This document shows, one piece after another, positions 3,976-49,575 of a stretch of 64,000 nucleotides of DNA; within the stretch, counting starts at the first letter, position 1, and the number at the start of each line of letters is the position of its first letter. The position numbers and the translations under genes were made by a program. The stretch is from Protonemura montana (lineage: Eukaryota > Arthropoda > Insecta > Plecoptera > Nemouridae). The stretch covers positions 12,586,001 to 12,650,000 of the forward strand of contig OX387606.1 in NCBI GenBank assembly GCA_947568835.1. Reading direction: 5' to 3'. The notes beneath the pieces were generated by a model, which was not told the origin of the DNA, ran no database searches, and was given only the letters and a program-made list of their open reading frames with translations.

Positions 3976-4046
3976 AATATAATGTAATTGCTATAATTTT
4001 ATGTGGTTCTTTTGTTATTGGAAAATTGTCAGGACTGCTCTTACCC

Positions 4047-4082
4047 TTGAAGAAGTAACTAGTATATGTTACGAAACGTCGG
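4047..4082 (+). ncRNA. Hammerhead-ribozyme-like core (decayed)
   Basis: The order is TTGAAGA, stem GTAAC, loop TAGTATAT, stem GTTAC, GAAA, CGTC. This matches the hammerhead layout CUGANGA, stem II, GAAA. The first core base is T rather than C, and an extra A precedes stem II, so cleavage activity is doubtful. The copies at 39.7 kb keep the five-pair stem and loop, which shows the hairpin is a property of the family. Confidence 0.35.
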
Positions 4083-4258
4083 GAAATTTAGTAGCCCTTT
4101 ACTTAGCATTCAAAACCCAGTTCAAATAGTTTTTCTAAAAACTTGTGCTAAGGATAAATCAAGTAGACATAAGTCTAAAAACCAGCGCAGATGAAATGTT
4201 AGTGTTTTTTTTTTAATTAACCTCGGAACAACTTGTGGCGCCTCTATCGGTAAAGCAT

Positions 4259-30853: not shown

Positions 30854-33300
30854 TGAGCGCTATATTTTGCTAAGCTCGGTCCCATGCAACTAAAATTTAG
30901 TTTAAATTACGTTGATGAACACTTTGACAAAGCAAATACTGAAGCAAATGTATGTACGCCATGCTTATTCATCACAAGCTGTAAAGCTAACGCTTTTTTC
31001 GATGCAGTGAATTATTTTAATCAAGTTAAGCTTTAATGAGATTTTTCGAATAACAAGATAAATTTTTACAGGAATTTTGAAGCTCATTGTATGCAAATTT
31101 CAATGTCAGAGATCCGCTTTACTGCTATTTATGCGGAGAGGCCAATTTAAAATTTCTGCGGTACACCGTGTGCATAGCTAGTGTGTGTGTGTGTGTGGTG
31201 TCTCCTTTGCGGCGGCAAACGGTACACAAAAAGCAGCAACTCGCATCATGGTTTATCTATGCTGCCTGCACACAGCATCGTATTTGAGTGCACACCGATG
31301 CCAACAAAAAAGAGATGCTAGAGCGCGCGGTAAAGTGGTTCACCAGCAAGAGTGTAGGCAAAGAAAACTGTATCCGCTTCGATGCAGAATTGTGCATCGT
31401 AGCCGGGAAGCTGGGCTCTCTCGGTAGATGGTACTTGCATAGTCGAACAAATAGGTGCACTGCTGCACATTTGACGGAGTCAGCAGTGGAAAATTATATC
31501 ACTAGAAGGTGGTATTTGCTGTGATCGAGATGAAATTCATGGAAATATGTGAGAATTGAGGTCATTCTCTTTTTCTCGGTGGTCATTTTTTGCGGTCTGT
31601 GCAATCACGCGAAGAGTTTTCTGAACCCCTTGTAACGCTTATTCAATGATGGTAATGAATAACCTGTGTCTCTTTTCAAAGGGATCGAGGGAAATGCAGG
31701 ATAAAAGTCGGGATTAATGGTAAAGTGATTACAGAGCATACAAACTTCTCAATCTAGCTGGATTATGGCCCGTTTCAATCGGCGAGCGATTTGCTGACAA
31801 TAGAGAACGGAAGGAAAAACGTCTCATTGATGGATAGAAGTCGGAAATCAACAAAAAACTTATTGCGCAAGAAGCGCAAGAAAGGGGAATAAATACTATT
31901 TTCCTTTACTATTTCGTTTTGTATACATATTCGAACGTGTGCGGAAACGGGAAGACGACGTGTAAAAACGATTATTTGATTTATTTAACAAAGTTTGCAG
32001 ATATTTTCATGTCTGTCGCGTTGAACAAATCTTGGACATAACTCATTCGCGCAAAAAGTGAATCAGAAGATTTCCTCGCAAATAATCAACAGGAACAAAG
32101 TCATTATCCTTAACTGTTAGAAAAACAACAACCCTTTGTCATTGCCAAAATTGTGGGCATCAATGTTTTGAACATTGTCAACAGCACTAAAATAATTGTA
32201 CACAAAAAAAATTTAACTTTATATAATTTTTTTTGGCTTAGAGTGTGTAACGCACCCAATAAGACAAGATAACTTTCAGATTACGTAGTAGCCATCCTCT
32301 CTATACTAGATATGCCATGTATTTGAGAAAAGCACGCTTAAAAACTGCTTTGCTCGTTCCACAACTCGGCGACCAGCCATGCATCTTACAATATAGCACG
32401 GATTTTTTCAAACGAGTAGTTATGGCTTGTGGGGGTGCACATAGTGAAGTCAAAAATGAATAAACCTCGTGATATCTTGGAACAATGGTGCTGCGCGTAC
32501 AGATGATGTACGCTGAGCGAACTGTATTGCATAATATACCGATTCGATACTCTCCATACTCTGTAAGATCCTTACAAAACAAGGAAAGCCACTCCCGCTT
32601 CTCCCATGCCGCACTTTCGAAACATCTGTTCATACTGCAGATTATTGCCAGAGGCGAACTACAATTGTATCCATCTACAGTCTACACATTAACATAGTTT
32701 GCAAGTAGCCCCCTCATTATTGCTTAAGTGTCATTTTGATTAACATTGGCAAGAAGTCGTTGAATGAAGAGGAAATTTCGAACAAGGAAGCGGCATCTCA
32801 ATTACGTTATGGAGGTACCCGTCTTAAGAATTATTCGAAAAGCGTTACCAAAACCATCCCCCAACGATGCGATACATTTATTAGAGCAACTTTTATGATA
32901 TTCCGAACTTTTTAAACAGAAGGCAAAGAAATTGTTGTCGAAATAGAAAAAGGAACGAGTCATCTAAACCAAAACCGACCAAAATGCATCCAAAAAAGGA
33001 CCCAAAATTTCCCTGCGGGTGTTCAGACCTCGGTTACGTACTGAACTACGTCAATTCTTGGTGGTCCCAAAAAGTTTTAAACGAATTTCTCAAAAAACTG
33101 TAAAAACAGCATAAGAACTTACATTTTTTCGGAAAATACTCACAACAGTTATATTGATAAATAATTAGTTTAAGTAGATAAGTAGAAGATAAATAAATTG
33201 ATATGTGGAAAGATGATCTATGTCGACAGAACTGGAACGAAATGAAGTAGTTTGCTGGGTTACCTATTCCATTAATTAAAGCATATATTAAGTATATTCC
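30854..33300. other. Non-coding stretch
   Basis: No gene recognised. A short TG microsatellite lies at 31,182-31,197. The rest is AT-rich without repeats that I can pair. Confidence 0.4.
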
Positions 33301-33302
33301 TA

Positions 33303-33328
33303 CACGCTAAAAAATTTGGAGTGAAAAT
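33303..33328 (+). repeat. Left terminal inverted repeat of the 3.1-kb element
   Basis: It matches the reverse complement of the right end over about 26 bases with two mismatches. Just inside is a perfect 19-base hairpin, GGAGTGAAAATTTCACTCC (33,318-33,336). Confidence 0.75.
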
Positions 33329-33636
33329 TTCACTCCTTGAACGAGTGGCGTCTAATTTGACACTTGAAAGAGTGGTTTTCTGTAATATTGACTCCCAAAT
33401 GTGTTGTTTTCCCACTCTTTGACAAGGAGTGCACAGAATTAGCTCTTTGGAATGAGTGCAGGGTATCGGGTACTTATTAAAGGAAGCGGTTAACTCCGGA
33501 TTGAGGCTGGAGCAGTGGCTGGAGCTTACGTGAGAAATGCTGAATCTACATTTCGACAGTCATTCAACTATTATGAGAGTGTGACTCATATCTTACTACC
33601 CAGCGAACTGTCGATTCGGAGCATTTTTAACTTTCG

Positions 33637-33672
33637 TTCAGTAGCTACCTCGGTCTTGAAGTGAAGTGATCA
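33637..33672 (+). promoter_or_regulatory. Possible initiator (TCAGT) upstream of the SAMD3-like start
   Basis: TTCAGTAG at 33,637-33,644 fits the arthropod initiator TCAGT. It lies 50-55 bases upstream of the ATG at 33,692. GATC follows near +29, where downstream promoter elements sit. There is no TATA box. The match is short and could be chance. Confidence 0.25.
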
Positions 33673-34310
33673 GTGCGTGTCGCAACTCGCCATGGAGGAA
33701 GAATGTGTTATGAATTTGGACTTGGAAGGTCTTCGACTTTTTCTAATCAAAAAAGGAATTCCGGAAGAATTGGCAAATGCTTTCAAAGGTAATAGAACAT
33801 TATGATCAAACTTTGAATTGCACACGAGGTACTTGGATTTTTATAGGTAAATTTCAACGCTTGCTTTACAGGTAACTCTGATGCAGTTTACTAAACCAGA
33901 TGAATCGACAAAAGGTGAAATCCAAGATCTTATGGACGATACATTTGAAATGAGGAGGAAAGAAATAAACGAGAATTCGCCTTCCATAACTGACATCATT
34001 GGGAAGTACCCTAGGCTGATCGACTTTGATGGTAACCAGGTACGCTGCACGCATTATACTTTTAAACAGCAAACTCTTTGATAAAACGTTCTTATAATCC
34101 TTGCAGTCCAATCATTTCCTACTTGTTTCAGGTAAATCGCGAATTCAACCGAATGGAAGAGAGCAAGTCAACAAACTTTTTATCGAAGTTCCGAAAAAGC
34201 TGTACTTCTCGGATACTGAAGTATTGCGAACAATTCAAACCCAAGTCCTTCAATATGTCAAAAAAAAATAGCAAATGGTAAGCATAACACCACATGTTTT
34301 ATGATTTCGA

Positions 34311-34343
34311 TTATTACCTATCGCGAATCGCGATAGGTAATAA
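34311..34343. repeat. Perfect 33-base palindrome in an intron of the SAMD3-like gene
   Basis: Arms TTATTACCTATCGCGA and TCGCGATAGGTAATAA are exact reverse complements, separated by one A. It lies between apparent exons 3 and 4. Such a long perfect palindrome in otherwise diverged DNA suggests a recent insertion or a structured RNA or protein-binding site. Confidence 0.85.
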
Positions 34344-34884
34344 GAATATTAATAATTTCCACTGGTAATTTGACATTTGCAGATGATCTTCGAGCAATTT
34401 TGCTTCTGGCGACTCTGCTGCCAGCATGCAACGCCAGCAAGAAAAAACTTCTGGCGACGCAGTACTTGAAAAGGGAACGGCGATCCCCAACGACTCTCTT
34501 TTGCGGTTTGTTAAGGTACGTTTAGTTTGACTGTTTCCACTTTCGCTATAAAATGATGCTCTTCAAAATTTTGGCTTCATAAATTGTAATAGATAATGGC
34601 GTGTCTACACTGTATGATTTTGTAAAAATCCTGACAATTTTCCCAAACCCATCAGTTTATTAAATTAAAGTCATCACTAAATAGGATATTGTGAAAAAAA
34701 TTAAATAAGTCACTGTAAATAAAGCTTGAAGTATCTTCTCCATGATAAGATATATCATGCACCTCACACCTGTCCAGCAACGTCACACTGATTACAAGAT
34801 TGACTATTAAAACAAGCTCTAATTTAATGTCGATACTTTCAGGCAGGGGCAGACATTACCGCCTTCGTCAAGGCGAGCACGCAA

Positions 34885-34896
34885 GGGGGGGGGGGG
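34885..34896 (+). repeat. Poly-G tract (12) in the last SAMD3-like exon
   Basis: Twelve G bases separate two reading frames that both match the family. Length change at this tract, real or from sequencing, is the simplest cause of the frame difference. Confidence 0.7.
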
Positions 34897-35399
34897 AGAG
34901 GTCCAACCGTTCCTCCTGTGTGTTGGCAGCCTGGAGGAGGGAGGCGATTACTTTATCGTCGCGGATAGATTTCATGTCGCAGTCGGCAAGTGCCCAGTAA
35001 GGGCTTTTGACTTGTTGTTTAAAACGTTCTATGTTTTTAATGTAGCATACCCATCGAACTTGATACGTTTCTACAATTTTGTCGAAACTCGCCTGTATGT
35101 AATGAATGTTAAGTCAAGCAACCTTGCGGCTACAGCAGGGCTAGACGCGTCCCTGTTGAACGTTCAAATTGATTAAAATTTATGACAATATGACAATATA
35201 AAATTTATGAGAACATTAGTATTGCTACCCAGATCGCTTGGAATTTGAAATATGCTAGGATTTATGACTAAAGTATTAAACTATTTAAGATAAGTATATC
35301 ACACAAAAAGAGTTTAAATAAATTCAATAAATTTGTTTACTTAAATGAGAATTTCTCTGACCTTGAGAACATTCAAAGAATTGTTTAATTTGTGTTAAA

Positions 35400-35631
35400 A
35401 TTGTAATTTAATCGATGGCGATCTGTTCTCTCTGATTTTTGTCTCTTCACTTCTAATTTCATTATAGAGAGTTGGTTTTATGTCTGCATTTTGAACTCTA
35501 CTTCCAGTTGTACTTGCTATACTTAATGATGAATCGGTTAATTTCTCTTGAAATTGCAATTTAATCGTGGCGATCTTCATTCTCTAATTTTTGTCTCTTG
35601 ACCTCTAATTTCAGTTATAGAGAGTTCATTG
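35400..35631 (+). repeat. Two-copy direct repeat, ~75 bases
   Basis: Copy 1 is about 35,400-35,472 and copy 2 about 35,553-35,631. Shared words in order: AATTTAATCG, TGGCGATCT, TTCTCT, AATTTTTGTCTCTT, CTCTAATTTCA, TTATAGAGAGTT. It is inside the 3.1-kb element, downstream of the gene, and of unknown role. Confidence 0.7.
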
Positions 35632-36034
35632 TGGAATTTAAAAAATTCAATACATCATTTCACCCATTTTTTCTGCTTAAAATTCAATTTTTATTTCTGT
35701 TTTCAATAAAATATTTTTATGATCCGAAATTAATTCGTTGTAATATTTCCACCTTCAAAAAGTACAGCTTGATAGACCTTGCCCATGACTAAAATAAAAA
35801 TGTCACGTAAGGAGTAAAATGTACGATCATGCGATGCACTTGCAATGCAGCAATGCATGCACACGAGCATCTAGCGAAAAATAATAAACAACTTCAGGTG
35901 ACAGGTCTATCAAGGCGTACGAAATTATCCTTTTTACAGGATTCCAATGAATTCTTTCACTCACTCGTTTTGGAGCATTGCAATCCCAGGAAATTTTCGA
36001 ATATTTCGAAACTAGAGTCGAAATTTTTGACTCG

Positions 36035-36388
36035 TTAAAGGAGTGAAATAAAATGTCTCTTTCGAGAGAATGACTTCCACTCATTATGGAGAGGGCACAT
36101 TTTGTCGTTTTAAAAGAGTGAGAATGATCCTTTCATTGAGTCAAAATATTTCACTCAATGAAAGAGTGAAATGAGATGACTCATTCGAAAGAGCGAGTTC
36201 CACTCCCAAGGGAGAGGGCACATTTTGTCGTTTTAAAAGAGTGAGAATGATCCTTTCATGGAGTCCAAATATTTCACTCAATGAAAGAGTGAAATGAGAT
36301 GACTCATTCGAAAGAGCGAGTTCCACTCCCAAAGGAGAGGGCACATTTTGTCGTATTAGAAGAGTGAGAATTGACTCTTTTGGAGTGG
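36035..36388 (+). repeat. Subterminal tandem array of the element, 123-base period
   Basis: The word GAGAGGGCACATTTTGTCG starts at 36,089, 36,212 and 36,335, exactly 123 bases apart. Two full units and two partial ones are present. Each full unit contains the hairpin ATTTCACTC-AATGAAA-GAGTGAAAT (36,148-36,172 and 36,271-36,295). Neighbouring units are nearly identical, so the duplication is much younger than the gene decay, or is kept uniform. Confidence 0.85.
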
Positions 36389-36414
36389 TTTTTGACTCCA
36401 ATTTTTTTAGCGTG
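36389..36414 (-). repeat. Right terminal inverted repeat of the 3.1-kb element
   Basis: Reads TTGACTCCAATTTTTTTAGC then GTG, followed by TA. It is the reverse complement of the left end, with a G/C difference after GGAGT. Confidence 0.75.
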
Positions 36415-36416
36415 TA

Positions 36417-37714
36417 CCCACGCACTCGTAAATCCACCGATGGATATCACCTATGTATAAATCGGTTCATCCTTTTATCCAGGTAACAGGTACAACCGTT
36501 GCCACCATTCTCGTGGCATTGTTCAAACAACATTCTCATTAGCAGTGCTATAATTGCTGCAGGAGGGGTCCAAAGGTGTACGCATCATTATAATTAATGA
36601 TTATACTACTAAAATATCGCGATGAAGTTGTTATTCACGGCATTATGAGTCCGTTGTACGTCGCGGTGTCATGTTACTGATATATGCCACAATTAATAAA
36701 GCTTTAATGCGGAATGTCATTGTTGCTTTTTCCAACTGAAAACCACATGGAAAATGAGGCACGACTTAATTAGAATCGAACGCGCTGGAATTCAATTACT
36801 TTTGAGTCGCGCTCGGTAGATGTGTGAAACGATATGCGAAGCGTTTCATCAATGTGCACACATAACGTTAATGACAAAATTGTCTGTGTCGCTAGGAAAA
36901 TTCATATTTGAAGTTTCTAATGCGTGTTTCGCTAAACTATTTCACATAGTCGGTTTGTTTGCTTCACTGCTGGCCTGGAAAGTTCACTATTCGGTTAGAC
37001 GGAGAGCATGCGAGCTCCAAAATATCACTTCTCAAATACTGTGGAATATTTTCAAACGGTTACCAGAACCAGCGGTCGCGGGCCAAAGCATCGAGAATTT
37101 CTCAGCCATTTCCCGATATGCATAGCAGCCATAACCATAGTTATTTCCTAAACTCCAGTCTCATGCACTTGTATAACGATGATCTTCCAGCTCGCATAGT
37201 TCTGGCGAAAACCACACTAAAGCCAATCCTCTAGCGGCCCTTGCCCCCCCCCCCCCCCCCCCCCCCCTCACCTACCCGATCTCCAACCTCCCGGAGGATG
37301 GTCAAAGCAGCTCAGAAATATGCGACGAGCGTCTGGACTCTGGGACTTGCCTCTGGTCCACATTTGCCGATATTTGAGATTCCTAGCGATCCATCCTCGG
37401 TTGGCGTCCGCGTGCCCATCGATGGGTACACGTTTCGATTCCCATAGCGTCGAATAAACGGCGTGGCGAGGAGTCGGCGTCGACATATCAGCTGGGTCAC
37501 TAGGGAATCACTCAAGTGTGATGGAGAAGGATTTCGCACTTCTGGTTCTCCTACTTTCTGTCTATATCGCATCCGGCTAAACTTTGCACTCTTTTTTTTT
37601 TGTAGAAAATGGTGACCGTTGAGTTGGTAACAAATATCGTTCGGGTGTCATGTCACTTGAAATATACCTATCAATTCATGCTAAGTGACTAGATAGATGG
37701 CAAAAATCTCTGCC
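36417..37714. other. Non-coding stretch
   Basis: No gene recognised. A 24-base poly-C tract at 37,244-37,267 is listed separately. The frame at 36,820-37,125 (101 codons) has no motif. Confidence 0.4.
37244..37267 (+). repeat. Poly-C tract, 24 bases
   Basis: An unbroken C run following CTTG and followed by TCACCT. Second of three tracts of this length and strand. Confidence 0.85.
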
Positions 37715-39660: not shown

Positions 39661-39748
39661 TTATGGTTTTTAATACCTTAGCACAAGTTTTGACAAACAC
39701 TTTTTGAACTAGGTTTTGAATGCTAAATGAAAAACAGCTAAATTTACC

Positions 39749-39783
39749 AACGTTTCGTAACTTGTACTTGTTACTTTATCAAG
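39749..39783 (-). ncRNA. Hammerhead-like core, arm 1
   Basis: Minus strand: TTGATAAAGTAAC, loop AAGTACAA, GTTACGAAACGTTGG. The five-pair stem and GAAA are kept; the CUGANGA box is changed, so it is probably inactive. Confidence 0.35.
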
Positions 39784-39825
39784 GATGAAAGAAGTCCTGA
39801 CAATTTTCCGATATTTCTTTCACCA

Positions 39826-39860
39826 TCGATAAAGTAACAGGTACAAGTTACAAAACGTTG
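39826..39860 (+). ncRNA. Hammerhead-like core, arm 2
   Basis: Plus strand: CGATAAAGTAAC, loop AGGTACAA, GTTACAAAACGTTGG. The stem is kept but the G of GAAA is lost, so it is presumed inactive. Confidence 0.3.
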
Positions 39861-41444
39861 GGAAATTTAGTTGTTCTTCAATTAGCATTCAAAACTCATT
39901 TTAAAAAGTTTTTGTCGGGCTAGGACTTAAATTAACAGATAAAAGCTACTATCAAGTGGGAAATTTTGATCAAACAGTGTCGTACAAAACAAATCATAAT
40001 CGTTTGGTAATGCGTATGTATATCGACACAATAAAATACATGAAACAGCATATAAAAGTATATCTTGGACTTGGCATCAAGACACAGAATGTCGAATTAG
40101 CTTGAAAACTGAGACCGAGATTCGGGTGTAATAAAGACACAGAATGCAGAATTCTTACCCCACGCCAAAGAAAACTGTCTCTCCGACGAAATGGTCATCG
40201 GCCTTTTTCCCACATCCCTGCGCCACTGAAACCAGCTGAGTTTAAGACAAAAGAGTACTATAAAGATCGTCGTGATGATCCAAGTTGCCCCGCCCTCCTA
40301 GCAATGCATCTGCAGAAACGAATTTGTTCCAGCGCACAGATGCCTAAAAATAAAACGGAAAAAACCTTTCGGTTCGGACTGCAAAACAAACACCTTCTCT
40401 GTAATTATAAAAGAGCTTTGTGCGTGAACCTCCCCAGCCACATATATCTCGCCGAACGCGATAAGCGTGGGAGCACCGAACGGCGGAGGCAGAACTATTT
40501 TACCCTCTCATTTCACGAGTAAATACCTTGAATTTACGAACACTTTTAACATACCAGCTGACCACATGACAACCGCATTTTACGCTCATAACTGTTCATA
40601 ATAAAAACATTTTAAAATAGTGACTTATCATGTCTCCTCTTAGAATTATTCGTCCCGGTTGTCTTTAAGAATATACATTATCGGGCTCATACCGAGCGGG
40701 CATAAAATACAATTATGCAAATGCATAGTGGAGTGAAAGAGAATCTAACACCTTCTTGCATAGAGCGACTCAAGTGCGCGTTAGCCTAATAAATCTCACG
40801 GGCTTGCAGTGTGCACTGGGCCGGGGCCATTCATTTAACCGATAGTGGGTACCATACCTCGTACATGTAGGATACGGATAACAAATGAACAAGATAAGTT
40901 ATGCATTACCTTGGATTAGAAGGCGATCGAACATGCTGCAAACGAAACGGTAGTAGATTACCACCATAGCGACAATGTTAAACTGTCTTCGCGAAAAATA
41001 TCCGCCAAATGACTAAATTACCCACAAAAATGTTAGTTTATTTTAGGTTGTTTCACTATCGTTTCGAGTGTTAACGATTTTCCTTTTGTTATTTCTTGCA
41101 GATTACTCGCATTTCAGTCTGGTTTATGTCAATTGATCGACATTAATGCTATCCTCAACGATTGATGTGCTGGTATCGATATTTCGGCGTAGTTATTCAA
41201 TTGTAGAGGTGTGTTAAAAAAGAAAGCCGCAATCGCCATTAGATAGCCCTTACTGTTACTACGCGTAGCCGGCAACATTAACAACAAACGACAACGACAA
41301 CACAAACATTAACGCTGGGCCTCTGACTATACCTATAAAGTCAATTATTGAAGTCAATGGTTAAAGTATCTTGCTATTGGACTGGTTATACCATTGATCA
41401 CTCTATGGTCCGTTAAAATTCGAATAGTCCGTTAATTTGCGCTA

Positions 41445-49466: not shown

Positions 49467-49575
49467 TGCAAACTTCACTCACGCGTGAGGTCCCACACGT
49501 GAGTTTTCACGTTTGCAAACTTCACTCACGCGTGAGGTCCCACGTGTGAGGTTCCACGTGAGAAGCTTCACGCGT
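49467..49575. repeat. CACGCG/CACGTG-rich tandem repeat, 47-base period
   Basis: TGCAAACTTCACTCACGCGTGAGGTCCCAC occurs twice (starts 49,467 and 49,514). Each unit contains the perfect palindrome CTCACGCGTGAG. Further sites between and after are CACACGTGAG, CACGTGTGAG and CCACGTGAG. At least six CACGYG or ACGTG cores fall in about 110 bases. Such cores are bound by bHLH and bHLH-PAS factors, so this could be an enhancer or simply a palindromic minisatellite. Confidence 0.65.

Follow-up and report, generated by a model that had tools for sequence, protein, structure and literature searches.

We identified a 3.1-kb element at positions 33303-36414 of the window (the whole 64,000-nucleotide stretch of DNA analysed here) that encloses a broken, multi-exon gene. 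Our tentative reading is that it is an old, non-autonomous DNA transposon of the cut-and-paste kind, bounded by CAC..GTG and inserted at a TA, and that a SAMD3-like gene was the element's own second gene. This copy has inverted terminal repeats, a TA on both sides, subterminal repeat arrays and the remnant of a gene whose start and stop codons both lie inside the ends (Table 1). We infer that the gene is SAMD3-like and that it served as a second gene of the element, not as its transposase.

Terminal and subterminal repeats

The element ends exactly at 33303 and 36414, with CACGCTAAAAAATTTGGAGT... at one boundary and its inverted partner at the other, which confirms the ends that the earlier note had proposed. 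The left end reads TA-CACGCTAAAAAATTTGGAGTGAAAA and the right end, inverted, reads TA-CACGCTAAAAAAATTGGAGTCAAAA. When the TA is counted, the two ends are identical in inverted orientation at 25 of 27 positions, whereas the same two-end comparison reached at most 16 of 27 in 2000 dinucleotide-preserving shuffles of the element, and in 60 shuffles no inverted pair of 27-mers, wherever located, agreed at more than 22 positions. The exact 12-mer CACGCTAAAAAA is found at two places in the window, both of which are ends of the element. With up to two mismatches allowed, the 12-mer occurs at 15 places in the window against 13 expected, which is no enrichment, and we therefore place weight on the exact pair only.

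The dinucleotide TA flanks the element on both sides, as the earlier note had described, and this part of its claim stands. As a target-site duplication (TSD), the TA is one of two equal readings. TA reads the same on both strands, so the same letters also fit a terminal inverted repeat (TIR) that starts TACACGC, with CC outside both ends (CC/TACACGC).

Inside the ends, the motif GAGTG/CACTC occurs at 22 sites, whereas 1000 shuffles gave 4.2 on average and never more than 12. The sites lie towards the two ends (Table 1), and none was found between 33600 and 35950, the middle 2.35 kb of the element. Measured in 426-nt stretches at 20-nt steps, the densest stretch of the element contains 13 sites, against at most 4 outside it. 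Three subterminal stretches folded as single-stranded DNA gave z-scores of -2.8, -3.2 and -3.0, in agreement with the hairpin-rich arrays reported previously for this DNA. The presence of these repeats at both ends and their absence from the middle of the element is the arrangement that a transposase or helper protein would presumably need in order to bind the ends. Taken together, the inverted repeats, the TA on each side and the subterminal arrays support the proposal that this is a DNA transposon. Further repeats lie in and downstream of the gene; among these, the perfect 33-nt palindrome between blocks C and D is set amid decayed DNA and may be of recent origin.

Table 1 Features of the element and its immediate flanks, in window coordinates
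Feature	Position	Strand	Details
TA, left flank	33301-33302		Candidate target-site duplication
Left terminal inverted repeat	33303-33327	+	Begins CACGCTAAAAAA
Perfect 19-nt palindrome	33318-33336		GGAGTGAAA-A-TTTCACTCC; adjoins left end; hairpin in centroid fold
Left subterminal region	33319-33581		8 GAGTG/CACTC sites
Block A	33692-33788	+	Start codon and presumed N-terminal half of a SAM-like domain, remainder absent; donor AAG/GTAATAG
Block B	33872-34039	+	EIQDLMDDTFEMRRKEINEN...; acceptor TTTACAG, donor CAG/GTACGC
Block C	34132-34277	+	VNREFNRMEESKS...RILKYCEQ; acceptor TTTCAG, donor ATG/GTAAGC
33-nt palindrome	34311-34343		TTATTACCTATCGCGA-A-TCGCGATAGGTAATAA; perfect 16-nt arms; intron between blocks C and D
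Block D	34383-34515	+	DDLRAILLLATLLPA in one frame, NDSLLRFVK in another (frame break)
Block E	34843-35176	+	C-terminal domain (QPFLLCVGS...AFDLLFKTFYVFNVAYPSNLIRFYNFVETRLYVM) up to stop codon; frame break at G run
Duplication of about 97 bp	35378-35626		84%; 35378-35473 and 35531-35626; downstream of gene
Right subterminal region	35958-36387		14 GAGTG/CACTC sites
Tandem array	36015-36371		123 bp x 2.9; hairpin-forming GAGTG/CACTC motifs
Right terminal inverted repeat	36390-36414	-	
TA, right flank	36415-36416		

The gene remnant and the search for a transposase

The gene remnant extends from 33692 to 35176 on the plus strand and consists of five coding blocks with four donor and four acceptor signals; the introns between the blocks have GT and AG where expected, and the stop codon is at 35174-35176. 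In this copy the gene is a pseudogene: blocks A and B are out of frame with each other, and further frame breaks occur at the C/D junction, within block D and at the G run of block E. The earlier note had not mentioned that the gene is broken. The remnant does not look like a fragment, given that its start and stop codons are both inside the ends.

The earlier note had assigned the gene to the SAMD3-like family. This assignment is plausible in that blocks B and E match presumed family sequences; the gene product gave no match near the cut-off in Pfam, NCBIfam, PHROGs or the PDB sequences. The comparators were four unverified sequences drawn up after the window had been read; one covers part of human SAMD3, and the other three are fragments from multi-copy relatives in fish or cnidarians. 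Against these presumed relatives, with E-values calculated for a nominal search space of 1e6 and without composition correction, block E aligned at 38% over 89 aa (E 2e-11) and block B at 42% over 36 aa (E 1.5e-6), and what we take to be the human SAMD3 piece gave a weak match (35% over 37 aa, E 0.002). Among 20 shuffles run as a control for these matches, the lowest E-value was 0.55. Blocks A, C and D (the last in one of its two frames) had no match to these comparators on their own. We take block A to be the first half of a SAM-like domain; Pfam gave no SAM match in this block. Predicted by itself, the structure of the 92-residue C-terminal piece had a pLDDT of 39.7 and was unusable. We judge that the remnant probably belongs to the SAMD3-like family, and we treat this as a lead and not as proof.

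The observation that the element has no known transposase holds for all 18 open reading frames of at least 60 aa within the element or spanning its ends, none of which has a transposase-type match in Pfam. Among shorter stretches, the scan covered block A and the other frame of block D; an open reading frame on the minus strand (33046-33306) that overlaps the element by four bases was left aside. Weak matches to AAR2, PRY, DUF7182 and STD1 (E 0.024 to 0.23) were far below the curated scores, and none of these is a transposase. Neither an EnSpm-type transposase (Transposase_21-type or related DDE) nor a Tc1/mariner DDE/D transposase with a helix-turn-helix was matched in the 18 frames of this copy. 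The search for a DDE-type or other catalytic domain, which the earlier note had envisaged for full copies of the element, covered this single copy, with no Pfam match near the curated cut-off.

Comparison with known transposons and origin of the gene

By anatomy, the EnSpm/CACTA-like (CMCT) elements fit best, and we do not claim membership. Subterminal repeats at both ends are a feature of plant En/Spm, and such repeats were found here at both ends. CMCT elements are described as having mostly CA..TG ends and TSDs of 2 to 5 bp, with TA as the TSD of ESTA (PMC12730594). The element studied here has CAC..GTG termini in inverted repeat; its flanking TA would be a 2-bp TSD, and the CC reading fits equally well. 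Among CACTA-like elements of animals, the TRC elements of Aedes, Tribolium and Schistosoma are reported to start with CCC, and 7 of the 14 Schistosoma copies to show a 2-bp repeat (PMC1636069), and Spongebob of Hydra to start with CCC and to have a 2-bp TSD (PMC4298943). Unlike the TRC elements, the element in the window starts with CAC, and judged by their letters its ends are closest to EnSpm. Because an EnSpm-type transposase was looked for and not found in this copy, which carries a probable SAMD3-like gene instead, we have not filed the element under EnSpm/CACTA-like. The ISL2EU (PHIS) elements are similar in their 2-bp A/T target and two-gene layout, and differ in having an AT TSD and ends that usually start with GG (PMC4482050), compared with TA and CAC here.

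There is precedent for a gene other than a transposase between the ends of a transposon. In fungi, TET/JBP genes are reported to accompany the transposons' own genes in eleven lineages, which indicates that a non-transposase gene can last in transposons and pass between them (PMC12730594), and ISL2EU elements carry YqaJ (PMC4482050). In contrast to the present case of one copy that lacks a transposase, those comparisons cover many families in which the transposase is known.

In the reading that we tentatively prefer, a CAC..GTG transposon would have inserted at a TA and would have carried, as its second gene, a SAMD3-like gene that was once complete. Other copies would supply the transposase that binds the ends. 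The SAMD3-like protein, oligomerizing through its SAM domain, may coat or bridge the subterminal GAGTG repeats, which is how TnpA acts in plant En/Spm; alternatively, its role may be to counter silencing. Part of the SAM region would then have been lost and frame breaks gained during later decay, so that this copy would now be inert.

A gene family already present in many host copies would be an easy target for capture, and it is quite possible, if not what we expect, that a non-autonomous TIR element took up a copy of a host SAMD3-like gene, introns included, through faulty excision or repair, and that the gene is passenger DNA undergoing decay. An intron-bearing, broken gene between TIRs without a transposase has the look of the Pack-CACTA and Pack-TYPE elements described in plants, which likewise hold a gene copy between TIRs and no transposase (PMC8616336). 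However, according to the same account, which draws mostly on plant work, the capture of a whole gene is rare in Pack elements, whereas the gene studied here has its start and stop codons inside the ends and is not a fragment. Only one gene is seen, with no mix of fragments, and the host would be an animal, to judge from the gene. Because the gene has both of its ends and Pack elements rarely hold whole genes, we lean slightly towards the gene being the element's own rather than captured, for which this is mild support.

A flanking TA is the rule for Tc1/mariner, and the TA on both sides would also be expected of a TA-targeting element unlike EnSpm, either Tc1/mariner-like (IS630-related) or of another MITE-type group, that carries the gene as cargo. 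We consider this unlikely. The tested open reading frames have no DDE-type Pfam match, a result that counts equally against EnSpm, but it is CACTA-like elements that more typically have dense subterminal arrays and CAC ends. CA..TG termini are given for these elements in PMC12730594. It is highly improbable that a host SAMD3-like pseudogene came to lie by chance between two unrelated inverted repeats: a single copy is known and the 25-nt repeat alone has an E-value of 0.002 (blastn, element against window), but the ends agree far better than in any of the 2000 shuffles, TA is present on both sides and the GAGTG arrays are confined to both ends.

To return to the SAMD3-like gene as a component of the element, such genes occur in many copies in the gene sets of fish, cnidarians and insects, and we know of no role for them. 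Speculatively, their copy number across animals could be due to a standard place as second gene in a lineage of TA-targeting transposons with CAC..GTG ends, in which they would have a TnpA-like or anti-silencing role; we regard this broader proposal as possible and somewhat doubtful. If SAMD3-like genes are transposon genes, many annotated 'host genes' would be genes of mobile elements, gene counts and 'family expansions' would need correcting, and the SAMD3-like family would acquire a role in transposition that can be tested. The exact ends make the link between SAMD3-like genes and the transposon easily testable in any genome that has them.

Within the open-licence PMC literature (Repbase and subscription journals lie outside it), we found nothing relevant that ties SAMD3-like, SAMD3 or sterile alpha motif to transposons, and nothing relevant on the end sequence of the element or on variants of the ends known from fish repeats. 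The parts of PMC11346364 that matched concern SAMD9, and in those of PMC11258905 samd3 is named as the neighbour of a sex marker and is not treated as an element.

Searches for relatives and other repeats in the window

The scans for further copies and for the gene used viral and prokaryotic collections, and their results say little about insects or other animals. In viral contigs, the strict end pattern had no matches and TACACGCTAAAAAA was found in at least 120 stretches. In none of the TACACGCTAAAAAA matches listed, all of which were inspected, do two exact ends face each other, and 4 have one exact end and one end with a single mismatch; these 4 stretches contain 4 to 18 GAGTG/CACTC motifs in 4 to 14 kb. 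A gapped version of the end pattern gave a single match in viral contigs, inside an open frame of a phage-like contig that we presume to be RecA-like, and we judged it to be due to chance. We judged likewise the single end match in prokaryotic genome contigs, which lies inside a 433-codon open frame in a bin labelled Chloroflexi.

At the protein level, 16 stretches of the viral contigs fit the pattern derived from the window protein, and 61 and 46 stretches fit those from two small protein alignments; none in either case was confirmed by tblastn. The element had no match to plasmids (blastn), and the C-terminal piece had no match to phages (tblastn).

In the remainder of the window, Pfam at E 0.01 gave no match for 10 of the 12 open reading frames of at least 130 aa, no tRNA was found with the bacterial setting, and Rfam gave no match. 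A poly-proline run occurs in plus-strand open frames at 37244-37267, and a 47-bp tandem repeat with CACGTGAGG-type motifs is present in 2.0 copies at 49467-49559. A near-palindromic inverted repeat of 225 bp (83%) is located at 39692-39916 and has a partial second copy (82%) at 4016-4158; these two repeats are a separate MITE-like family.
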